This document shows, in pieces, positions 1,476-51,510 of a stretch of DNA of 64,000 nucleotides. How positions within the stretch are numbered: the stretch's first letter is position 1; each line of letters opens with the position of its first letter. The translations under genes were made by a program, and so were the position numbers. Source of the DNA: Actinomadura syzygii (GTDB lineage Bacteria > Actinomycetota > Actinomycetes > Streptosporangiales > Streptosporangiaceae). The notes under the pieces were generated by a model. The model was not told the origin of the DNA and did no database searches. It saw only the letters and a list, made by a program, of their open reading frames with translations. The stretch covers positions 186,001 through 250,000 of the forward strand of contig NZ_VSFF01000013.1 of assembly GCF_008085905.1 (NCBI RefSeq), given 5' to 3'.

Positions 1476-4031
1476 ATGACTGAACTGGTCGACTTCTACT
1501 GGATGCCCGATGCCTGGTTCGTGGGACGTGAGGACTTACTGGCCGAGCTCACCACGACGACCGGGCGGCAGCGGATGCACCAGGTCGTCGGTGGTACGGG
1601 CACGGGCAAGTCGTCACTTCTCTTCCAAGCGAGCCGCAGACTCGCCGCGAGTGGACTGGCCGTGGGTTACATCAGCGCCAGCCGGATCGCCGCGGTCGCG
1701 GCGGCCCCCGCGGGAACCCCGGACGCGCAGGCGCGCACCACGCTCGACTGGTGTCGTACCGCGGCCCGGCTCATCGCGGCCGATCTCGACGGTGCCCACA
1801 TGTTCGATGCCGCCCGCCAGAGGAGCGTCCAGGACGCCGCGAACCGGATCATCGACGCGGTCTGGCGTGTCGAGCGCATGTCCGATCCAAAGCACTGCGG
1901 TGCGGATGGCCCCGGGCCGGACGCGCGCGTCGGCCGGCAGGACGCGGTGGCCGCCCGGCCCGGCGACCTCATCCGGCTTCTGTTCGATGAGGTCAGGGAC
2001 GCACTGGCGGGTTGCGAGGCACCGACCGGCGACCACGCGGGCTTGGCCGTTCTCATCGACGAGTTCGACCGTGTCGAGGGGACCCCGACCGCCGAGTGGC
2101 TGCTCGACCTGCTGGTCCGGCTGCCGTCCAGCGTGAGGATCGTGGCGCGCCGGCCTGGCGGCCCGACACCCGAGGGCGTCGTGCACCACCTGCCCCCGCT
2201 CAGCCGCTCGGACGTCGCGAGCTACCAGCGGGTCCGGCTGCCGTCCTCCGGGGACCTCGATCGTCTCATCGCCCAGACGGTGGAGGTGACCCAGGGACAC
2301 GCCCTCGCGGTCGGCATAGCCACCGACCTGCACGCCGCCTACGGCGACGAGTTCGACCTGCGACGGGCGTTCGGCGCAACGGGGAAGACGGGGCCCCCGC
2401 AGGAGGGCACCGAAACGTCCTCGCGGCTGGAGGCGATCGGCGCGGCGTTGGACGGGCTGCTCGACGATCTGTGGAGACCGGCCTCCTGGACGCGCGACCG
2501 GGGCCGTTTGCGCCTGCTGGACAGGCTGAGCGTGGTACGGCGGTTCGACGAGCCGCTGCTGGCCGCGCTCCTCCAGGACACCGGCGCGGTGGCGGCCGAG
2601 GTGTCCGCGCTGCAAACCGTCCTGCGGCATCAGTCCTTCGTCGTCGGGTTCGACGACGACCTCGAGCAGGGACTGCGGCTGCACGAGGCCGTGCGTGGCC
2701 GCCGCGAACGGGCGCTGCTCGCCCAGGACCCCGCCTTCTACCACCGGATGCACGGCCATGCCGCCCGGCATTGGGAAAGACTGCTCAACGCGTTCGAAAC
2801 CGACGAGGACGATGCGCTGTACCGTACGTGGCATCGCTACGAACACCCCGAATGGCACGCGTTACAGACCGACTGGCTCTTTCACCTGGCCCGCTCGGAC
2901 GCGGAACCGCGAACGGTCGACCTCGCTTTCGCACGGGTCTTCTTCGACGCCTTCTGGTGGTTCGGTGAGGCGGTGCCCTCTCCGCTCTGCGATGAGATCC
3001 TCGACAGGTTCGAGAACATGCCCAATGCGGACGGGTCGCTCGCGAGCCGTGAATGGATCGGGCATCTGAGGAGGTTCCGCAGTTCCTTCCCCAGTGCGCT
3101 ACGGCCCGAGTACGCCGAGGCCGGGCAGTGGGAAAGCTCCTGGGAGGCGCTCCAGGGGATGAGCGCCCTGCTCGACCAGGCGGCACACGGCGTCCGGCAG
3201 GACTCTCCAGAAGACGACGACGTCATGCAGGTCAGGGGCCTGATCAACACGTACCTCGGTGAGGTGGGCACTCGCCTGGAGCGCCCGCTCGAAGAGGTGC
3301 TGGCCGCCTACCACGAGGCCAGAATCGCCTTCGACTACCTGGAGGAGGAATGGTGCCTGCTGTGGGTCGACTACCTGAGCACCGACGTCCTGTGCGCTCC
3401 GCAGTACCCGGGGCACCTTGACGAGGCCGAGCGGCAGATCCGTCCCCTGGAGGCGAGGATCTCCGAGCAGGCCGAATACGAGCTGCGCGTCCTGCTGGCC
3501 GAGACGTTCGGGGAGATCAACTGGCGGCGTGCGTTGGAGGCGTCGCCAGCCGAGGCCGCGGGGCGCCTGCGCGCGGCCCTTGACGCCCATGCCCGCGCGG
3601 TCATGCACGCCTACGCCTTCAACACCCGCCAGGAGATGCCCGACCAGGCGCCCAGTGAATACACCAGGGTGCTGTACGAGTCGCGGATGGACCATGCCCG
3701 CGCGCGCATGCGCGACCTGGAGCTGATCAGTGAGGACGCCTCGCGGCCCGCTGAGCTGCGGGCGGTCGCCCGGCGCGAGTACGAGGCCGCCCTGGTCCGG
3801 ATGGAACGGCTCTTTCGCCCGTACTGGGCCCACATCCGGCAGACCGGAGGGGCCACGGCGTCCGACCGGCGGACGGCGGGCGGCGACACGCTGGACGGGA
3901 TCTTCCCTCCGCCTCCCACGAGCGCGGACCTCGACACCCGGTCCAGCGCGTTCGCCGACGCCGTCCGACATTTCCTGCGGGTCCGCCGGCGCGAGTTGGA
4001 CGACCGGTCGATCACCGCTCCGCTTCCCTGA
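1476..4031 (+). CDS. STAND-like P-loop ATPase with helical-repeat C-terminus
   Basis: The 851-residue protein has a Walker A motif GGTGTGKS at residues 39-46, directly after a short segment with WFVGREDLLAEL, the usual entry to AAA/STAND NTPases. A Walker B-like segment VLIDEFD lies near residue 190. The C-terminal 450 residues are rich in charged amphipathic helices and look like TPR- or HEAT-type solenoid repeats, though no repeat unit is sharp. No transmembrane segment or signal peptide is seen. It faces the trypsin/NTPase/WD40 gene and their 3' ends overlap by 20 bases. Role in a conflict or signalling system is inferred from architecture and neighbours. The start ATG follows a GGAGAGC ribosome site. 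Confidence 0.7.
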   Translation: MTELVDFYWMPDAWFVGREDLLAELTTTTGRQRMHQVVGGTGTGKSSLLFQASRRLAASGLAVGYISASRIAAVAAAPAGTPDAQARTTLDWCRTAARLIAADLDGAHMFDAARQRSVQDAANRIIDAVWRVERMSDPKHCGADGPGPDARVGRQDAVAARPGDLIRLLFDEVRDALAGCEAPTGDHAGLAVLIDEFDRVEGTPTAEWLLDLLVRLPSSVRIVARRPGGPTPEGVVHHLPPLSRSDVASYQRVRLPSSGDLDRLIAQTVEVTQGHALAVGIATDLHAAYGDEFDLRRAFGATGKTGPPQEGTETSSRLEAIGAALDGLLDDLWRPASWTRDRGRLRLLDRLSVVRRFDEPLLAALLQDTGAVAAEVSALQTVLRHQSFVVGFDDDLEQGLRLHEAVRGRRERALLAQDPAFYHRMHGHAARHWERLLNAFETDEDDALYRTWHRYEHPEWHALQTDWLFHLARSDAEPRTVDLAFARVFFDAFWWFGEAVPSPLCDEILDRFENMPNADGSLASREWIGHLRRFRSSFPSALRPEYAEAGQWESSWEALQGMSALLDQAAHGVRQDSPEDDDVMQVRGLINTYLGEVGTRLERPLEEVLAAYHEARIAFDYLEEEWCLLWVDYLSTDVLCAPQYPGHLDEAERQIRPLEARISEQAEYELRVLLAETFGEINWRRALEASPAEAAGRLRAALDAHARAVMHAYAFNTRQEMPDQAPSEYTRVLYESRMDHARARMRDLELISEDASRPAELRAVARREYEAALVRMERLFRPYWAHIRQTGGATASDRRTAGGDTLDGIFPPPPTSADLDTRSSAFADAVRHFLRVRRRELDDRSITAPLP

Positions 4032-7000
4032 CCGACGGGGGAAGCTCGAAAAGGATCACCTCGCGTCCCGACCCCACGGCCAGCACTCCGGGCGCGCTGT
4101 CGAGCGCCGTGACGGGATAGGGACAGGCGATCCGGTAGAGAAGACGGGGATCGGACGGGTCCTGCACGCTCCAGATCATGACGTAACGATCCATTCCCCC
4201 ACTGATCACCACGGGATGGTCGTCGAGTGACGTGGCCAGCACCGCGAGCACCTCACCGTCATGGGAGAGGGTCGCGAGCAGCTCGACGTTTCGCAGATCC
4301 CAGAGGCGGACGTGGGCGTCCTCGCCACCGGTGACGACGAGCGGTCCTCCGCCCGAATCGGCGCAGTCGACCGCGTTGACCGCCCCGGTATGGCCTCGCA
4401 GGTAGTTGCGGGTCTGCAGCGTGTCCAGCCACCAGACCTGGGCCCGCTCATCGGTGCGGGCGCCGACCAGCACAGGGTGGCCGTCGAGCTCACCGCAGGC
4501 CAGCGCGGTGATGGCGCCGCGGCGCTGCGGGTCGGGCCGCAGGTGCCGGGGAGCCGGTGCGCCGGGCGGTCCGGTGCCCGGCACGTCCCAGGCCCACAGA
4601 CCGCCCCGGCCATCGGCCGCGGCCACCCGCAGCGCCGGGGCCGCACCGTCGATCATCGACGCCGTGCCGCGGCAGGTCACGGCCGAGATCGGTCCGAAGG
4701 GCACGTCGAGCACCATCGGCTGCGCGCCGCCGTCCAGGTGCCGGACGCTCACCCGCCCCTCGGCGCCGCCGAAGACCACCACGGGCTCATCGCCCAGCAC
4801 GCCACAGCCGACCGAGGTGACCGGGGCCCCGAGGTTCGTGAACGGCTGCTGCGGCTCACCCGACGCCAGATCCCAGCACCGGACGGCGTCGGCGGCCACG
4901 CTCAGCACCACCGGCTCGCCCGGGACGCACGCGACCGCCGACACCTCGGCCGAGTGGCCGGGGCGCGGAGCCGGCGCCGCGGTCCCGGACCCGCCGTACG
5001 ACGTGCGCCGCTGACGGCGCGAGCCGCCGGTGGCACGTGCGGCGCCCGTGGCCCGCGAGGCGCTCGTCGCCCGCGACCTGCCCGTGGCGCGTGCGGCGCG
5101 CGAGCCGCCCGGACGTCCGGCGGTGCCGCACACGGCCGACAGATCCCAGGCTCTGACAGTCCCGTCGTCGTCCCCGCTGATCGCGAACGGCTGATCGGTT
5201 CCGCCGTCGGCCGAACGGGCCGTGTCCCCTGCCGCGCACGCGATCTGGCGTACCGCGCTGGTGTGCCCCACGAGAGTCTCCACCCGCCGCCGGACCTCGA
5301 GATTCCAGACGCCGATCGTCCCGTCCGCGTGCGCGCTGAGAGCGATCACGGCACGGCCCACACGGGTACAGGCCACGGCGAGTGCACGCTCGCCGTCCAT
5401 GCCCAGCTGTCCCAGAGGCTTGCCGGTGTCCAGATTCCAGAGTTGCATCGGCCGATCCCGATGGCAGGTGACGGCCACCGGGGCGCCGTTGAGCTCGGCA
5501 CAGGCCACGGCCTGCACCTCGCTCACACCGTCGATCGAGGTCGGGCGCCGCACCCCGGACCGCAGGTCCCACACCTGGGCTCCGCCCGTGCGACCGGCCA
5601 GGACCGCCAGCGCCTCCGTCGCCCCGGTCTGGAGGCAGGCGACGACCAGGTCCGGCGAACCGGGGAACCCGGCCAGGGGGAGCCAGGCGAAGGGAGGCGA
5701 CGGACGCAGGCATGCGGCGGATCCGTCGGGCCCGGCCGCGCTGCCGCAGACCAGAACCGGCCCGTCGTCGACCACGGCACCGGCCAGGGCGTGGGCACCG
5801 TGCCCCGAAACGGTCAGGCGTTCGGACGGGGCCCGGGTCCGCAGGTCCCACGCCCTTACCGCGCCGTCGTCACCGCTGGTGAACGCCACGGGCCGGCCAC
5901 CGAGGTCAGCGCAGGCGACGGCCTGCACTATGTCGGCGCCGTCGGGCAGCGGGCAGCGCACCTGGGAACCGTCGCGTACGTCCCAGAAACAGAGGTAGCC
6001 GTCCAACCCACCCGTGACGGCTACCTGGCGGCCGTCGGGAAGGCGTGTCGCGGCGATGGCGCTCACCCCGGCGTCATGGCCGCGCAGGCTCCACAGCAGC
6101 GCACGGCTCGCCTGGGCGCCGCTGGCCCAGCGAGGCCGCACCCGTAACGGGCCGCTGAGCCCGCGGAGCAGCGCCGTGGCCCGGAATCGGGCGGCGTCGA
6201 CGGCGAGCAGCTCCCGGCGCTCCTCCAACAGCAGGCGGCGGTCGTCCGGCTCCGGCCCGGTCCCGAGGTCGATACCCCGGTAGTGGTGGGCCGAGGTGCG
6301 ATAGACGTCGCGGACCGCCCCGCCCTCCGGCGTCCCTTCCGGTGTCGTGGTCCGGTTGAGCGCTCGCAGCAGCGACGCCGGGTCGGCGTGCACCAGGAAC
6401 TCGGCATCGCCGATCAGCCGGTCGAGCACGCCGGGCACCGCCTCGGCCGCGTGTTCGGCAAGGTGGGCGATCACGTAGGCGGGCGCCGTGTCCCATCCGG
6501 CGCCGTTCCCCGCGCCCCCATGGACCTCCACCAGCGTTTCCACGATCGCCTGTTGGTCGCGGGCCCGCTTCGGCCCGGACGGCAGAAGCTCCTCGTCCAG
6601 CGCGCGGTGGAAGAGCCTTCTTGTGACCCCGTCCGCGCCGCTTCCCGTGGTGAGCAGATAGTCGTTCATGGCCCCGGAGTGCATCCACTCCGGGCCGAGG
6701 TGCTGCATCCTCCTGGGATCCAGGGCGCGGACGAACAGGAGCCACTGGTCGTCGGTGAGCCCGGCGCCCCGGGCGTAGGCGAGGGCGGTCAGCAGGCTGC
6801 GCAGGGCGGTCCGCTCGGCCTCGGGAAAGCGGTTCAGGTAGCTGTTGAGCGCCTCGCCGACGCCGGAGGGGATCATCTCCCGCGCGTCGAAACCGGGCGC
6901 GGCCGGATCGACCGGCGCGTCCGCGCGGGCGAGCGCGATGGCCGCCAGCGCCGCGACCAGGTGGTTGCCCTCGGCGCGGTCGCCGATCACCCGCGCCAGC

Positions 7001-44316: not shown

Positions 44317-46322
44317 CAGTCGCCCGCGGGCGTGAAGAGGCGGTAGACGGGCTGCAGGTCGGCGTGGACCTTGCCCCAGTCCGCGTCGGGCGCGCAGAGC
44401 AGGATCGCGTAGCCGTGCCCGTTCGCGACGAAGCCGCGGTTCAGGATGTGCATGCGGCCGCCGTCCCCGTCGAAGGTGAACTCCCAGTCGGCCGACTTCT
44501 TGCCCTTCCCCGTGTCGGGGACGGGCGGGTGGTCGCCGGTCGGCCTGATGTCGATCTTCTCGTAGCCGCGGAAGCCGGACCCGCCGCGCTCCTGCCGCCG
44601 CCAGTCGCCGATCGCGCTCTTGCCGGGATCGTCGGTCTGGTCGATCTGGATGTAGGTCCGGCGGCCGGGCGCGTAGTAGAAGTCGCCGCCGTTCCTGCGC
44701 TCGGGGCCCGTCCACTTCTCCGGGACGGCGAGGCTGTAGCCGCTGCGGTCCTTGTGCGTCCGGTATCCGGCGGGGACGCTGACGCCCGGCGTGCCGGTCG
44801 GCTTCGCCGAGGCCGGCGGCGCGGACGAGCCCTTGACGCCGGTCGCCGGGGTGGTCGCGCCCTCCTTGCGGGCCCGCTCGCCGCCCTTGTCGCCGCCGCC
44901 GCTCGCCAGCGCGATCCCGGCGACGACCATGATGATCACCAGCACCACCGCCGCCACGATCAGCACGTTGCGGTTGGAGGCGAGCACCGGACGCCCGCCG
45001 CCGCCACCGTGCGTCGTGGGCGGGAAGTGCGTCCCCTCGTGATCGACGGCGCCGTGGTCGACCGAGCCGTGGTCGACCGCGCCGTGGTTGCCCGCGCCGT
45101 GGTCGGCCTTGCCGTGGCCGCCCGGCCCGTGCTTGAGCGCCCCGCGGCGGGTGGGCATCGTGCTGCCGACGGGCTCGGTCCGGGGGCCGGAGGCCCGCCA
45201 GGACGACACGCGGTCGGGGTCGGGCGTGGTCTCGTTCGGCCCCGCCTTGCCCGTCTTGCCTGCCTTCCCCGCCTTGCCCGCCTTGCCCGCCGTCGCGGGC
45301 CCGGACGCGGCGGCGCCGGACGGGAGGTCGAAGCTGGTCAGCTGGTCGGGACGGCCGCCCGCCGCCTCGCCGGAGGGCGGCTCGACGACGGTCTCGGCGG
45401 GCGAGCCGGAGCCGTGGCCGGGGACGGGCGGGAGGTCGTCGGCCGTGTACTCGACGGCCATCGTGCGCTGCGTGTCGATGGTCTCCTGGCGGACGATGTC
45501 GTCCAGCAGCGCGCCCGCCTCGATGGCCCCCATCCGCTGGTCGGGGTTCTTGTGGAGCAGCCCCTCGATGACCGGGATGAGCCGGCCGCCCTTCTCCGGC
45601 GCGTCGGGCTCCTCGGAGATGACCGCGACCAGCGCGGCCATCGGCTCGGGACGCTCGAACGGCGACTTGCCGTGCAGCATCGCGTACAGGGTCACGCCGA
45701 GCGACCACAGGTCGGACGCGGGCCCCGCGACACGCCCGCGCGCACGCTCGGGCGCGATATAGGCGGGCGAGCCCATGACCAGGCCCGTCTGCGTGAGGGT
45801 GGCGTCGCCGGACGCGGTCGCGATGCCGAAGTCGGTGAGCACGGCGCGCTCGCCCATGCGCCCGGTGCCGGTGATGAGCACGTTGCTGGGCTTGACGTCG
45901 CGGTGCAGGACGCCGGCCTCGTGCGCGGCGTGCAGCGCGGCGAGCATCTGCCGGCCGATCTCCGCGGCGCGGCGGGCCTCCAGCGGGCCCTCCTGCTTGA
46001 TCACCTGGTCGAGGGAGCGCGCCCGGATGAGCTCCATGATGATCCAGGGGCGGTCGTCCTCCTCGACGACGTCGTAGACGGTGACGACGCCGGGGTGGCC
46101 GAGCCGGGCCGCGGTGCGCGCCTCACGGAACGTGCGCTTGTGGTGGACGGCGCGCTCCTCATCGGTGAGACCATGCGGGAGGATGACCTCCTTCACCGCA
46201 ACGTCACGACCGAGGACCTCATCGTGTGCCTGCCAGACCGTCCCCATGCCGCCCCGGCCGACCTGGGTCACCAGGCGGTAGCGGCGGGCGAGCAACCGCT
46301 CACCGGTGGGTTCATTTGGCAT
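44316..46322 (-). CDS. Ser/Thr protein kinase 3 with external sensor domain
   Basis: About 668 residues. The kinase domain has [38 protein letters not shown] and [11 protein letters not shown]. The linker contains low-complexity repeats (KAGKAGKAGK, and HGAVDHG-type His/Asp repeats). One transmembrane segment (VLIVAAVVLVIIMVVAGIAL) is followed by an external domain with GYSLAVPEKWTG, TYIQIDQTDDP and a hydrophobic ILLCAP strand. The first gene of the kinase operon. ATG 46320-46322 (MPNEPTGERLL) is preferred; a GTG at 46374-46376 is possible. Confidence 0.9.
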   Translation of the reverse strand: MPNEPTGERLLARRYRLVTQVGRGGMGTVWQAHDEVLGRDVAVKEVILPHGLTDEERAVHHKRTFREARTAARLGHPGVVTVYDVVEEDDRPWIIMELIRARSLDQVIKQEGPLEARRAAEIGRQMLAALHAAHEAGVLHRDVKPSNVLITGTGRMGERAVLTDFGIATASGDATLTQTGLVMGSPAYIAPERARGRVAGPASDLWSLGVTLYAMLHGKSPFERPEPMAALVAVISEEPDAPEKGGRLIPVIEGLLHKNPDQRMGAIEAGALLDDIVRQETIDTQRTMAVEYTADDLPPVPGHGSGSPAETVVEPPSGEAAGGRPDQLTSFDLPSGAAASGPATAGKAGKAGKAGKTGKAGPNETTPDPDRVSSWRASGPRTEPVGSTMPTRRGALKHGPGGHGKADHGAGNHGAVDHGSVDHGAVDHEGTHFPPTTHGGGGGRPVLASNRNVLIVAAVVLVIIMVVAGIALASGGGDKGGERARKEGATTPATGVKGSSAPPASAKPTGTPGVSVPAGYRTHKDRSGYSLAVPEKWTGPERRNGGDFYYAPGRRTYIQIDQTDDPGKSAIGDWRRQERGGSGFRGYEKIDIRPTGDHPPVPDTGKGKKSADWEFTFDGDGGRMHILNRGFVANGHGYAILLCAPDADWGKVHADLQPVYRLFTPAGD

Positions 46323-46447
46323 ATCCGCGACCATATCGACTTTTGCTGACAACCTTGGACCGAGCTTGCAAGCCACATCCCCCTACTCGTACGACGTCCG
46401 GCCCCACCTTGAGGTTCGCCGCCGGACGGGCACGCGCCGACGGAAGC

Positions 46448-49400
46448 GTGGTGGACGTGACACCCGTGACGAATAAGAAGGCAGCACCGCACGGCGACCG
46501 GGGGAACGCGCCGGGACGGGAACCGCACGATCCCCGCGCGCCGCGCGGCGGCCTGCGCGGCGAATGGGGACGGCTGATCCAGGCCGCACCGACGATCTTC
46601 TTCTGGTACACGCGCCTCTCCGGGATCCTCTCGCTCCTCGCGTGGGTCTCCTATGGTCTCATCCTTGAGATAGCCGATATCTGGGCGTTGCGCTGGATCG
46701 GCTATCTCGGCTGGTTCCCGAGCGTGCCCATCGGGCTCGTGTGGATCCTGCTGTCGATGGGCATCAGGCGGCGCAAGAAGGCCGCCTGGCGGATCCTAGT
46801 GGCGATCTTCTGCCTGCCCACCGCCCTCGGCGTGACGGCGCTGCTGACCACGCTGATCAGCCCGGCGAAGCCGACTCCGATCGGCCTGATCGTCAGCGCG
46901 GGCGTCTACCTCGCGGTGCTCGTCCTGCTGATCTCCGCGCGCGGGCAGTTCACCACGCTGCCGGACCGCGCGAACCGCAGGCTCGCCACGCTGGTGTTCA
47001 TCGGCACGCTGATCGTGACCCTCGGGATCGGCACGCTGCTGGTCAACATGACCGACCGGAACCGGCACGGCGACCTGTGGACGCACCCGCTCTACGCGAT
47101 CTCGCAGACCGTCCTCGGGCCGCGCGTCAGCGGCAAGCCGATCAATGTGAACGTCCCGTTCGCGGTGGACGCGATCCTCTGGGTGCTCGGCACCGGGCTG
47201 CTGCTCGTCACGTTCTGGGCGCTGTTCAAGCCGGGGCGGCGCGACCCCGTCCTGGACCCCGGGGCGGAGCTCGCCGCCCGCGCGCTGCTCGCCGAGTACG
47301 GCGACCAGGACTCCCTCGGCTACTTCGCGCTGCGCCGCGACAAGGACATCATGGTCGCGCCGAACGGCAAGGCCGCCATCGCCTACCGGGTGGAGGGATC
47401 GGTCTCGCTCGCCAGCGGCGACCCGCTCGGCGACCCCGAGTCGTGGGACCAGGCGATCGAGGCGTGGCTCGCGGAGTGCCGCGAGCACGCCTGGATCCCG
47501 GGCGCGGTCAGCGTCGGGGAGCGCGCCGCGCACATCTACCGGCGGCACGGCTTCGACGCCCTCGAACTCGGCGACGAGGCGATCATCGACCTGACCGACT
47601 TCAACCTGGACGGACGGGAGATGCGGCAGGTCCGGCAGGCCGTCCGGCGGGTGGAGCGGGCCGGGTACAGCGTGCGGATCAGGCGGCACTCGCAGATCCC
47701 GGCGTGGGAGATGGCGAAGCTCATCCGCAGCGCGGACGCCTGGCGCGGCGACGACACCGAGCGCGGCTTCTCGATGGCGCTCGGCCGCCTCGGCGACCCG
47801 ACCGACGGCCGCTGCGTCATGGTCGAGGCGTTCGACGCGGAGGGCGAGCTGCGCGGGCTGCTCAGCTTCGTCCCGTGGGGGCGGACGGGGCTGTCGCTCG
47901 ACCTGATGCGCCGCGACCGGCTCGCGGAGAACGGCCTGAACGAGTACATGGTCGCGAAGCTCGCGGAGAAGGCGGCGGCGGTAGGCGCGCAGCAGCTCTC
48001 GCTGAACTTCGCGATGCTGCGCAAGGCGTTCGCGCAGGGCTCGTCGATCGGCGCCGGGCCGGTCGCGCGGCTCTACTACCGGTTCCTGTCGTTCGCGTCG
48101 AAGTTCTGGCAGCTCGAATCGCTGTACCTGGCGAACTCCAAGTACCTGCCGCACTGGCGGCCGCGCTACGTCTGCTACACGCACAGCCGGGACGTCCTGC
48201 GGCTCGGGCTCGCCTACGCCCGCGCCGAGGGGTTCCTGCCGAACCTGAACCGGCCGAAGCTGGACCGCGCCGCCGCGATGGTCCCGTCCGCCGACCTCGT
48301 CCAGCGGATCAAGGAGATCGAGGACGCGGCCGACGCCGCCCGCGCGCCGCAGCGCCGGCTGTCGGAGCAGGAGCGGGTCCGGCACGCCAAGCTGGACGAG
48401 ATCCGCGCCGCCGGGATGGAGCCGTACGCGCTCGGCTTCGAGCGCACCGACTTCGCCGCCGGGATCCGCGAGCGGTTCGCCGGCCTCGCGCCGGACGCCC
48501 ACACCGGGGAGCGCGTCTCGGTCGCCGGCCGGGTCGTCCTCGCCCGCGAGCACGGCAGGCTGATCTTCGTCACGCTGCGCGACGAGACCGCCGACCTCCA
48601 GGTCATGCTGACCGCGGACGCGCTCGGCGACGAGTCGCTGCGGCACTGGAAGAAGCTGATCGACCTCGGCGACCAGGTCGGGGTGAGCGGCGAGGTCGTG
48701 ACGTCCCGGCGCGGCGAGCTGTCGGTGCGCGCCGAGTCGTGGAAGCTCGCCGCCAAGTGCCTGCGGCCGCTGCCGAACAAGAGCACCGGGCTGTCCGACC
48801 CGGAGGCCCGGGTGCGGCAGCGCTACGTCGACTTCATCGTCAACGACGAGGCGCGCCGGATGCTGCGGGTCCGCGGCGACGCGATCGCCGCCGTCCGGGA
48901 CGGCCTGCGCGAGCGCGGCTACCTCGAAGTCGAGACGCCGATGCTCCAGCCCGTCCACGGCGGCGCCGCCGCGCGCCCGTTCACCACCCGGATGAACGCC
49001 TACAACCTTCAGCTCTACCTGCGGATCGCGCCCGAGCTGTACCTGAAGCGACTGCTCGTCGGCGGGGCCGGGCGCGTCTTCGAGCTGAACCGCAACTTCC
49101 GCAACGAGGGCGTCTCGCCGAAGCACAACCCCGAGTTCACGATGCTGGAGGCGTACGAGCCGTACGGCGACTACGACACGATGGCGGAGCTGACCCGCTC
49201 CCTCGTGACGGACGCGGCGCGGGCCGCGCTCGGCACCACGGTCGTCGTCCGGGACGGGGCGGAGCACGACCTCGCGGAGCCGTGGCGGCAGATCACCGTG
49301 TACGAGTCGGTGTCGGAGGCGCTGGGCGAGGAGGTCACCCCGGACACGCCGGCCCCAGTCACGCGCGGGTACGCCGAGCGGTGCGGGCTGAACGCCGACC

Positions 49401-49825
49401 CGCAGTGGGGGCAGGGGAAGATCGTCCAGGAGCTGTTCGAGGCGCTGGTCGAGGGGACGCTGACCGCGCCGACGTTCGTCCGGGACTACCCGGCCGAGAC
49501 GTCCCCGCTGACCCGGCCGCACCGCGCCGACCCGCGCCTCGCCGAGAAGTGGGACCTGATCGTCTTCGGGATGGAGCTCGGCACCGCCTACTCGGAGCTG
49601 ATCGACCCGATCCTGCAGCGGCAGCGCCTCACCGAGCAGTCGCTCCAGGCGGCGGGCGGCGACCCGGAGGCCATGGAGCTGGACGAGGACTTCCTGCGCG
49701 CCCTGGAGTACGCGATGCCCCCGGCGGGCGGGATGGGCATGGGCATCGACCGGCTGCTGATCACGCTGACCGGGCGGAGCATCCGCGAGACGATCCCGTT
49801 CCCGCTGGTCCGCCCCGGTTCTTAG
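46448..49825 (+). CDS. lysX: Bifunctional lysyl-phosphatidylglycerol synthase / lysyl-tRNA synthetase
   Basis: About 1125 residues, the normal size of LysX. Six transmembrane segments (residues about 40-265) precede an MprF-like lysyltransferase domain (KDIMVAPNGKAAIAYRV, SLASGDPLGD, FAMLRKAF). The C-terminal 510 residues are a class II LysRS with an OB domain (RVVLAREHGRLIF), motif 2 FRNEGVSPKHNPEFTML and motif 3 GMGMGIDRLLITLT. It adds lysine from Lys-tRNA to phosphatidylglycerol, lowering envelope charge and conferring resistance to cationic peptides. GTG 46448 or the next GTG codons are the likely start. Divergent from the kinase operon. Confidence 0.92.
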   Translation: MVDVTPVTNKKAAPHGDRGNAPGREPHDPRAPRGGLRGEWGRLIQAAPTIFFWYTRLSGILSLLAWVSYGLILEIADIWALRWIGYLGWFPSVPIGLVWILLSMGIRRRKKAAWRILVAIFCLPTALGVTALLTTLISPAKPTPIGLIVSAGVYLAVLVLLISARGQFTTLPDRANRRLATLVFIGTLIVTLGIGTLLVNMTDRNRHGDLWTHPLYAISQTVLGPRVSGKPINVNVPFAVDAILWVLGTGLLLVTFWALFKPGRRDPVLDPGAELAARALLAEYGDQDSLGYFALRRDKDIMVAPNGKAAIAYRVEGSVSLASGDPLGDPESWDQAIEAWLAECREHAWIPGAVSVGERAAHIYRRHGFDALELGDEAIIDLTDFNLDGREMRQVRQAVRRVERAGYSVRIRRHSQIPAWEMAKLIRSADAWRGDDTERGFSMALGRLGDPTDGRCVMVEAFDAEGELRGLLSFVPWGRTGLSLDLMRRDRLAENGLNEYMVAKLAEKAAAVGAQQLSLNFAMLRKAFAQGSSIGAGPVARLYYRFLSFASKFWQLESLYLANSKYLPHWRPRYVCYTHSRDVLRLGLAYARAEGFLPNLNRPKLDRAAAMVPSADLVQRIKEIEDAADAARAPQRRLSEQERVRHAKLDEIRAAGMEPYALGFERTDFAAGIRERFAGLAPDAHTGERVSVAGRVVLAREHGRLIFVTLRDETADLQVMLTADALGDESLRHWKKLIDLGDQVGVSGEVVTSRRGELSVRAESWKLAAKCLRPLPNKSTGLSDPEARVRQRYVDFIVNDEARRMLRVRGDAIAAVRDGLRERGYLEVETPMLQPVHGGAAARPFTTRMNAYNLQLYLRIAPELYLKRLLVGGAGRVFELNRNFRNEGVSPKHNPEFTMLEAYEPYGDYDTMAELTRSLVTDAARAALGTTVVVRDGAEHDLAEPWRQITVYESVSEALGEEVTPDTPAPVTRGYAERCGLNADPQWGQGKIVQELFEALVEGTLTAPTFVRDYPAETSPLTRPHRADPRLAEKWDLIVFGMELGTAYSELIDPILQRQRLTEQSLQAAGGDPEAMELDEDFLRALEYAMPPAGGMGMGIDRLLITLTGRSIRETIPFPLVRPGS

Positions 49826-50449: not shown

Positions 50450-51187
50450 ATGACCATGGCAAAGCTCAACCAGATCATCGCCATTGAGAAAGGCGTGAAG
50501 GGCCGCGCCCAGCGCGAGGTGGCGGACGTTCTGCGGCTGCTCCAGAAGCCGGTGCTGCTGTCGGGCATCTCCCGCGTGTACCGTCCGAAGGACGACGAGG
50601 GCGAGACCCTTCCGCCGGAGTCCACCAAGGTCCAGGTGAAGTCGGAGGACGCGCTCCGCGACGTCTCGAAGACGCTCACCCGGCTGTTCGACGTGGTCGC
50701 CACGAAGGACTGGGCGAACCGCGAGGCGAGCGCCGACGTCGTCGTCGACGGCAGGCCGATCCTGACCGGAGTCCCGGTCACCTACCTGCTGTTCCTGGAG
50801 AAGCAGCTCAACGAGCTGCACGCGGTCCTCGACAACCTGCCCGTCCTGGACGCGTCCGAGTCGTGGAGCTACGACGAGAGCCAGGACGTGTGGCGCGCCG
50901 CGCCGGTCGAGACGTCCCGGACGAAGAAGGTCCCGCGGGCCCACGTCCTCTACGAGGCGACCGAGAAGCACCCGGCCCAGGTCGAGACGTTCACCGAGGA
51001 CGTGATCGTCGGCACCTGGACGAAGGTCGCGTTCTCCGGCGCGCTGCCCGCGCGCCGCCTGAACGAGCTGCGCGACCGCGTGGACCGGCTGCTGGCCGCG
51101 GTGAAGTACGCGCGTGAGGAGGCCAACACGGCGGAGGTCGACGACCGGCAGGTCGGCGACGCCGTCTTCGCGTACCTGTTCGCGTAA
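50450..51187 (+). CDS. DUF7873-type protein next to a Y-RNA-like element
   Basis: The 245-residue soluble protein begins MTMAKLNQIIAIEKGVKGRA, continues with GISRVYRPKDDEGETLPPES, and has LFDVVATKDWAN and VPVTYLLFLEKQLNELHAVL. It ends with a charged coiled-coil-like helix (LNELRDRVDRLLAAV) and AVFAYLFA. This pattern recurs in actinobacteria and their phages as DUF7873; no function is established. GGGAGAAGG precedes ATG 50450. No membrane segment. It is followed after 130 bases by the YrlA-like RNA, so a role with that RNA is an attractive but unproven idea. Confidence 0.75.
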   Translation: MTMAKLNQIIAIEKGVKGRAQREVADVLRLLQKPVLLSGISRVYRPKDDEGETLPPESTKVQVKSEDALRDVSKTLTRLFDVVATKDWANREASADVVVDGRPILTGVPVTYLLFLEKQLNELHAVLDNLPVLDASESWSYDESQDVWRAAPVETSRTKKVPRAHVLYEATEKHPAQVETFTEDVIVGTWTKVAFSGALPARRLNELRDRVDRLLAAVKYAREEANTAEVDDRQVGDAVFAYLFA

Positions 51188-51196
51188 CCCGAGACT

Positions 51197-51216
51197 CCCC
51201 CGCTGGAGCGCGGGGG
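51197..51216 (+). terminator. Hairpin after the DUF7873 gene
   Basis: CCCCCGC (51197-51203) pairs with GCGGGGG (51210-51216) around a six-base loop, ten bases past the stop codon. A second hairpin, CCGCG-TCCC to GGG-CGCGG (51218-51237), follows at once. Together they probably terminate or process the transcript. Confidence 0.5.
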
Positions 51217-51240
51217 GCCGCGTCCCTGTGGGCGCGGAAA

Positions 51241-51300
51241 GCTGAGGATGACGCTCAGTCTGAATACGCAAGCTCAGACTATCGCTCCAGACTCAGCATT
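51241..51300. other. Structured non-coding segment upstream of the Y-RNA-like element
   Basis: This stretch holds several overlapping self-complementary pieces: GCTGAG with CTCAG, TCTGA with TCAGA, and GCTGAG (51241) with CTCAGC (51293). The word CTCAGtCTGA and variants recur three times. It could be the promoter region or a 5' domain of the RNA that follows. No coding frame fits. Confidence 0.4.
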
Positions 51301-51320
51301 CGCCGTTCCCCACCGGCGGA

Positions 51321-51424
51321 GGCGACCGGTCTTTCCCGTAGTTGTCAGTTCGAATCTGACCCGCAGCTCTCGTGCTGCGGTAGCTCAACGGAAGAGCGCG
51401 GCGAAGGAAAACTGACCCGGCGCC
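51321..51424 (+). ncRNA. YrlA-class bacterial Y RNA (tRNA-like module, candidate)
   Basis: A tRNA-like domain is present with its halves in rearranged order. The T arm comes first: GTCAG (51344-51348), loop TTCGAAT, CTGAC (51356-51360). It runs directly into an acceptor-like strand CCGCAGC (51361-51367), a 6-base loop TCTCGT, and the pairing strand GCTGCGG (51374-51380). Then come TA, as U8-A9, and a D arm GCTC-AACGGAA-GAGC (51383-51397) with the D-loop GG. The outer ends form a bulged stem: GGCG, CCGG-TC and TTTCC on the 5' side with GGAAA, GACCCGG and CGCC on the 3' side. This is the known layout of YrlA Y RNAs, in which the anticodon arm is replaced by the Ro-binding stem. No Ro gene is in the window. 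The exact ends and strand of transcription are inferred. Confidence 0.75.
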
Positions 51425-51432
51425 TGTTCATC

Positions 51433-51496
51433 GACGGTGGGTGCATTCGACGGCTTCCGGGCCCCGGGGATCGGGTAATCCCCGGGGTCCACCGTC
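51433..51496. terminator. Nested hairpin between the Y-RNA-like element and the winged-helix gene
   Basis: GACGGTGG (51433-51440) pairs with CCACCGTC (51489-51496). Inside, CCCCGGGGAT (51462-51471) pairs with ATCCCCGGGG (51478-51487) around CGGGTA. The position between converging units suggests a two-way terminator. The 3' side is followed by GCCA, which makes it superficially tRNA-like, but no D or anticodon arm fits. Confidence 0.5.
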
Positions 51497-51510
51497 GCCA
51501 TTCCGCGAGG

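Follow-up and report, generated by a model that had tools for sequence, protein, structure and literature searches.

A structured RNA with permuted tRNA-like heads linked to DUF7873 genes in bacteria, phages and viral contigs

The transfer-messenger RNA (tmRNA) combines a tRNA-like end with a dedicated small protein, SmpB, and in two-piece tmRNA the gene is permuted and cut in the loop beside the CCA end. In the permuted tRNA genes of algae and archaea the 3' half comes first, and a loop connects its acceptor end to that of the 5' half. GOLLD and ROOL are large structured phage RNAs, often found near tRNA genes, and YrlA RNAs, which belong to the Y RNAs, carry a tRNA-like domain on a basal stem and also occur in phages. 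In one study, YrlA RNAs are given a length of 90-150 nt and a head that engages tRNA-handling enzymes within the Ro60-YrlA-PNPase particle (PMC8394870). Here we describe an RNA that adjoins the gene of a DUF7873 protein in Actinomadura syzygii, within a 64,000-nt stretch of contig NZ_VSFF01000013.1 (assembly GCF_008085905.1, positions 186,001 to 250,000), hereafter the window. A sequence-only reading had placed a ~100-nt YrlA-type Y RNA at 51321-51424 of the window, with no Ro (TROVE) gene beside it.

The window RNA is a single-headed copy of a larger DUF7873-linked RNA and runs over about 51195-51490, approximately 300 nt, compared with ~300-400 nt in most relatives. The proposed ~100-nt RNA was not borne out, as 51321-51424 is only the 3' head of this RNA. 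Every tRNA-like feature claimed for that stretch was located in the sequence, all on the plus strand: the T arm GTCAG-TTCGAAT-CTGAC at 51344-51360 (helix 11 in relatives), a closed 7-bp acceptor-like hairpin, CCGCAGC<TCTCGT>GCTGCGG, at 51361-51380 (helix 12), whose loop TCTCGT starts at the discriminator position (U73), and, at 51381-51397, U8-A9 (51381-51382) followed by the D arm GCTC-AACGGAA-GAGC (51383-51397; helix 13). This permuted unit, termed module B, forms the head of arm B. Relatives usually carry a second head, module A, which is absent from the window copy. The resemblance of the window copy to a YrlA RNA is due to this absence, and what was right in the YrlA-type assignment is the tRNA mimicry of the head; the RNA as a whole is not simply a stray YrlA.

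DUF7873 proteins form a large family (6861 of 7998 scored candidates match), from which the closest loci were kept, comprising 80 of 91 bacterial relatives, 9 of 73 phage records and 82 viral contigs (80 + 2, the 80 taken from at least 465). Modules were called by a detector built on a 5-bp T arm with a TTCRANY loop, a 7-nt acceptor hairpin, two bases and a D arm, and any module up to 900 nt downstream of DUF7873 was counted. At least one permuted tRNA-like module was found downstream of DUF7873 in 161 of the 171 loci (79/80 bacterial, 8/9 phage and 74/82 viral-contig loci), and two or more in 109. As controls, the 167 loci whose downstream sequence is 350 nt or longer gave 9 hits upstream, none on the reverse strand and none after shuffling. 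The detector hits far downstream in L088, L095 and L162 (offsets 675, 813 and 608) may be unrelated. L124 was counted as a miss with just 9 nt downstream, and L121, L152, L160, L165 and L167 were found by eye to hold the RNA though the strict rules had missed them; the viral L167 and L152 seem, again by eye, to lack module A. The bacterial records span Actinomycetota together with entries labelled Myxococcales, Spirochaetes and Planctomycetota.

Some loci depart from this pattern. In L095 (~3298-4045) several hundred bases appear, by eye, to interrupt module A behind its T arm and acceptor strand, and the module at offset 813 mentioned above follows. In L031, L117 and L119, DUF7873 has no recognisable RNA downstream, and the last two look identical there. 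In the Gordonia phage Phendrix (L085, 2072-2600), a tmRNA match lies in a tRNA array that also carries DUF7873 and the RNA.

The linkage was followed in whole genomes with R1, a covariance model of arm B built on 36 rows (alignment A6) including the window copy, in a set of 59 genomes (A. syzygii and relatives) and a set of 296 across the phylum, with the A. syzygii genome in both. DUF7873 was present in 31 of the 59 genomes, and an R1 match of at least 64 bits lay directly downstream in exactly those 31; among the 296, DUF7873 was present in 6, with an adjacent R1 match of at least 63.7 bits in exactly those 6. No R1 match of 63 bits or more was found in a genome lacking DUF7873 in either set. 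The best such match in the 59 genomes reached 48.4 bits and covered the tRNA-like part only, and the weak whole-model matches in genomes lacking DUF7873 scored 31.7 and 28.7 bits in the first set (G034 and G035) and 33.2 and 29.1 bits in the second (G105 and G068). Arm B of the window (51302-51455, plus strand; G000:C4:237302-237455) scored 110.9 bits (E 2.9e-28) as one of the training rows of R1. Module A accompanied arm B in 29 of the 31 DUF7873 genomes, in 28 by a second model match just upstream and in G027 by the detector; it was lacking in A. syzygii itself and in G010.

Of the frames of at least 100 aa compared across 55 loci, none but DUF7873, together with those that overlap it, was common to all ten groups, and no other frame was common to more than two of the ten. 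The search was also made from the side of the RNA, by looking for the core-helix pattern in viral contigs and testing 80 of 108 stretches. A module was near 5 of the 80 sites, all 5 with DUF7873, and DUF7873 was present at none of the other 75; four of the five positive contigs were already in the DUF7873 set, therefore only L254 is new. The suggestion that the RNA may serve a protein other than Ro thus fits what was found, as it goes with the DUF7873 gene, and from this linkage it is likely that the DUF7873 protein binds the RNA. Two further observations concern the distribution of the gene. At G009:C6:195276-196005, DUF7873 matches two frames, a sequencing error or decay, and the RNA is still alongside; and Deinobacterium chartae was the only one of 14 control genomes that matched DUF7873 and likewise the only one that matched TROVE.

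The structure of the RNA, permuted heads included, is supported by strong covariation, a check that the sequence-only reading had itself proposed. An alignment of 35 of 46 non-redundant bacterial RNAs (A4), with the structure taken from RNAalifold, contained 80 pairs, of which 52 changed on both sides, and 96.7% of its cells were paired. When the partners were slid, pairing fell to 38.5-47.8%, and none of 500 shuffles was as high on any of five measures. In a second alignment of 42 RNAs (A5; 34 from phages or viral contigs and 8 bacterial), both-side changes were seen in 44 of 48 predicted pairs. Within the structure, the acceptor-like hairpin (helix 12) had such changes in all 7 of its pairs in relatives and the terminal hairpin (helix 14) in 8 of 9. 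The window copy also folds better than shuffled sequence, both for 51321-51424 (z -3.2, 0/200 as good) and for 51188-51500 (z -4.9, better than all 100 shuffles).

In the family, the general order is the DUF7873 stop codon, two hairpins, a core helix P1 with module A at its tip, arm B with module B and the terminal hairpin. In the window, all elements are on the plus strand. The two 5' hairpins, HP1 (51195-51216) and HP2 (51218-51237), were taken from the fold of 51188-51500, and P1 (helices 1-3 of the covariation structure) from the alignments. The 5' strand of P1 (51241-51263) shows, in the alignments of relatives, T-n-A repeats at 6-nt spacing, and its 3' strand (51274-51297) carries the conserved sequence TATCGCTCCAGA.TCAGC. 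Between the strands, where most relatives have module A, the window copy has just a short linker (51264-51273) that closes P1. Arm B, delimited by R1, has a bulged outer stem that encloses the head and that in the fold pairs its 5' side (51309-51324) with 51421-51441. It is followed by the terminal hairpin (51459-51490), which has no U run and whose loop sequence is, by eye, alike in relatives. The window copy is assigned to the family on its position directly downstream of DUF7873 and its possession of P1 and an arm B with module B. Neither in the window nor in the 16 DUF7873 loci scanned did the RNA score above the cut-off of any Rfam 15 family, ARAGORN called no tRNA in the window and thus no tRNA gene in standard order, and no description of a DUF7873-linked RNA family was found in the literature and families searched.

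The DUF7873 gene (PF25283, 370.6 bits) lies on the plus strand at 50456-51187, with its start codon at 50450 or 50456, and its end at 51187 confirms the spacing of 134 bases to 51321 given by the sequence-only reading. The protein has ~245 aa, and its AlphaFold2 model (mean pLDDT 95.3, pTM 0.73) is predicted to consist of four long helices and a long beta hairpin; no clear match to it was seen among the solved structures compared. DUF7873 is not mentioned in the literature searched. Upstream of the gene, at 46226-49825, the window encodes a LysX-type protein in which a lysyl-tRNA synthetase is joined to a phosphatidylglycerol lysyltransferase domain.

The modules of the DUF7873-linked RNAs carry marks of tRNA ends. 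The sequence NCCA followed the acceptor directly in 50 of the 113 distinct modules from phages, whereas other offsets gave 33 of 1538 (Fisher p ~1e-41, kinship ignored); for bacterial modules the counts were 21 of 121 and 14 of 825 (p ~2e-11, kinship likewise ignored). Ordinary tRNA genes in the DUF7873 loci encoded CCA in 41 of 255 cases in phages and 3 of 26 in bacteria. A U stood at position -1, before G1, in 74 of the 113 phage modules, whereas T occupied 415 of 1764 loop positions elsewhere; for bacterial modules the figures were 62 of 121 and 275 of 1067. It is likely that the heads are processed like tRNAs, because NCCA stands at the exact position of the tRNA 3' end; this placement supports, short of proof, the cutting of the loop and the use of the resulting ends. 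The two heads differ in the discriminator, with A in 100 of 125 copies of module A and T in 105 of 145 copies of module B. Fourteen ordinary phage tRNAs predicted by ARAGORN share the D arm of module A, and 11 of these 14 are tRNA-Leu, so module A of relatives looks tRNA-Leu-like in its A73 and Leu-type D arm, as far as these 14 predictions go.

The best-supported explanation, drawn by analogy, is that DUF7873 and the RNA form a particle in which the tRNA-like heads make contact with tRNA-handling enzymes. The region directly downstream of DUF7873 would be transcribed as a structured noncoding RNA of ~300 nt, to which the DUF7873 protein would bind to form the particle. RNase P would then cut the acceptor loop of the head and CCA would be added, leaving pieces that would be held together by their acceptor stems, as in two-piece tmRNA. 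The particle would in this way present tRNA-like ends to tRNA-handling enzymes, one of which may be recruited in the manner of the Ro60-YrlA-PNPase particle. To this proposal as a whole, from the binding of the ~300-nt RNA to the DUF7873 protein through RNase P cleavage and CCA addition at its head to the presentation of tRNA-like ends, we assign a probability of about 0.6.

A different protein partner would be implied if the window RNA were a YrlA Y RNA that served Ro60 (rsr) in trans, being encoded far from it, as the order of elements in the head is identical and a Ro gene is present in the genome. The statement that no Ro gene is a neighbour holds for the surroundings of the RNA, but not for the genome, where the search suggested by the sequence-only reading gave a single TROVE match, on another contig (C1:10538, contig 1), where three permuted modules lie on the upstream side of Ro (L001 257-625). 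The YrlA model RF02553, the nearest Rfam family, scored 38.9 bits on 51319-51429 (E 2.7e-7), under the cut-off of 69. As two RNAs from the Ro locus of this genome score similarly and likewise fall short (44.8 and 40.9 bits), this cut-off does not separate the window RNA from them. Among the Ro loci of relatives, 15 of 19 stretches carried one to three permuted modules (26 in total) and 4 none, one of these being a short contig end. A CTGAYC strand 3' of the head was found in 9 of the 26 Ro-locus modules and 50 of 145 copies of module B, compared with 5 of 124 copies of module A; because this strand is common to Ro-locus modules and module B, a common origin of arm B and YrlA is possible. YrlA binds Ro60 through the basal stem, and a GCGAAG-like motif on the 5' side of the module, used as a weak marker for this binding, was present in 7 of the 26 modules at Ro loci, in 2 of 145 copies of module B and in 14 of 124 copies of module A. 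The reading in trans is nevertheless disfavoured by the genomes with no Ro match. TROVE matched in 20 of the 59 genomes: where both DUF7873 and the RNA are present, in 31 genomes, 13 had a match and 18 had none, and a further 7 of the 59 carried TROVE but neither DUF7873 nor the RNA. The TROVE matches are partial and weak (23.5-64.2 bits), therefore a diverged Ro could be missed among the 18. In addition, the Ro locus owns permuted modules itself, and the RNA of relatives has two heads and other arms, which makes service to Ro60 from afar very unlikely.

Other explanations keep the association with DUF7873 and give the heads another task. They could be decoys that absorb enzymes attacking or modifying tRNAs, such as toxins or host defence nucleases, with DUF7873 protecting the RNA and phages thereby shielding translation. 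In favour of this, the tRNA elbow arms, the acceptor and the CCA position are all retained, and the DUF7873-RNA unit lies inside a tRNA array in 4 of the 9 phage stretches. However, the heads have no anticodon loop, which is the target of many tRNA-attacking nucleases, the long conserved core and the terminal hairpin go beyond what a decoy needs, and bacterial copies are mostly away from tRNA arrays (28 ARAGORN tRNAs in 80 bacterial loci compared with 278 in 91 phage and viral loci), and we regard this as an unlikely account. The same NCCA and U at -1 would suit a cis-acting processing element, in which RNase P and 3' processing enzymes sever the DUF7873 mRNA from the sequence behind it, as in tRNA punctuation, and no particle is formed; the RNA is on the same strand and downstream of DUF7873 in the genomes searched. 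Punctuation, however, requires neither a second head of a different kind nor the outer stem and conserved core helix, it gives no tie to one particular upstream gene, and the next gene in the window past the RNA is AlkZ-like, on the minus strand and convergent, all of which leaves such an element improbable. Finally, the conserved T and A every six bases in the core strands can be read as alternating charged and hydrophobic codons, a K-L-K-L pattern that might be translated as a tag in the way of tmRNA. Single-base insertions shift this frame (L043, L059 and L062 compared with L046 and L055) and the core strands pair with one another in P1, so that a messenger-like tag is hardly credible. Identity with tmRNA was likewise rejected, as single-base indels disrupt the frame that can be read and no Rfam tmRNA match was found in the DUF7873-linked RNA; ordinary tmRNA genes were found elsewhere in L028 and L085.

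Returning to the DUF7873-RNA particle, a more far-reaching form of it would be a tRNA mimic of a new kind alongside tmRNA-SmpB and YrlA-Ro, in which both acceptor loops of a two-headed RNA are cut and two chargeable tRNA ends, one Leu-like and one with U73, are held by DUF7873 and used by phages and their hosts. We put this forward only tentatively, as a possibility rather than an expectation. A large protein family of unknown function is in any case tied to an RNA here, and in phages both adjoin tRNA genes. Should the heads be both processed and charged, cells and phages would contain an aminoacyl-RNA particle of neither known type; if they are not, this would be a Y-RNA-like system with a protein other than Ro.

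Compared with the described systems, YrlA and Rsr are similar in that the T arm, closed acceptor hairpin, U8-A9 and D arm follow in the same permuted order, a long stem encloses the head and the RNA gene adjoins a protein gene. The DUF7873-linked RNA differs in adjoining DUF7873 and not TROVE, in the second head, core helix and terminal hairpin that most relatives possess, and in its length of ~300-400 nt, set against the 90-150 nt given for YrlA (PMC8394870). It differs from the RNAs of Ro loci in NCCA, which is enriched in the DUF7873-linked modules and occurs in 2 of 26 Ro-locus modules. Where a permuted tRNA gene has its anticodon loop, the DUF7873-linked RNA has an RNA body. GOLLD and ROOL are larger and gave no match at Rfam cut-offs in the window or the 16 loci, and the RNA described here is linked to a conserved protein gene. 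Most of the DUF7873-linked relatives have two heads with D stems and no conserved reading frame, in which they differ from tmRNA, but they share with tmRNA and SmpB a tRNA-like end and a small protein gene and, with two-piece tmRNA, a permuted order.
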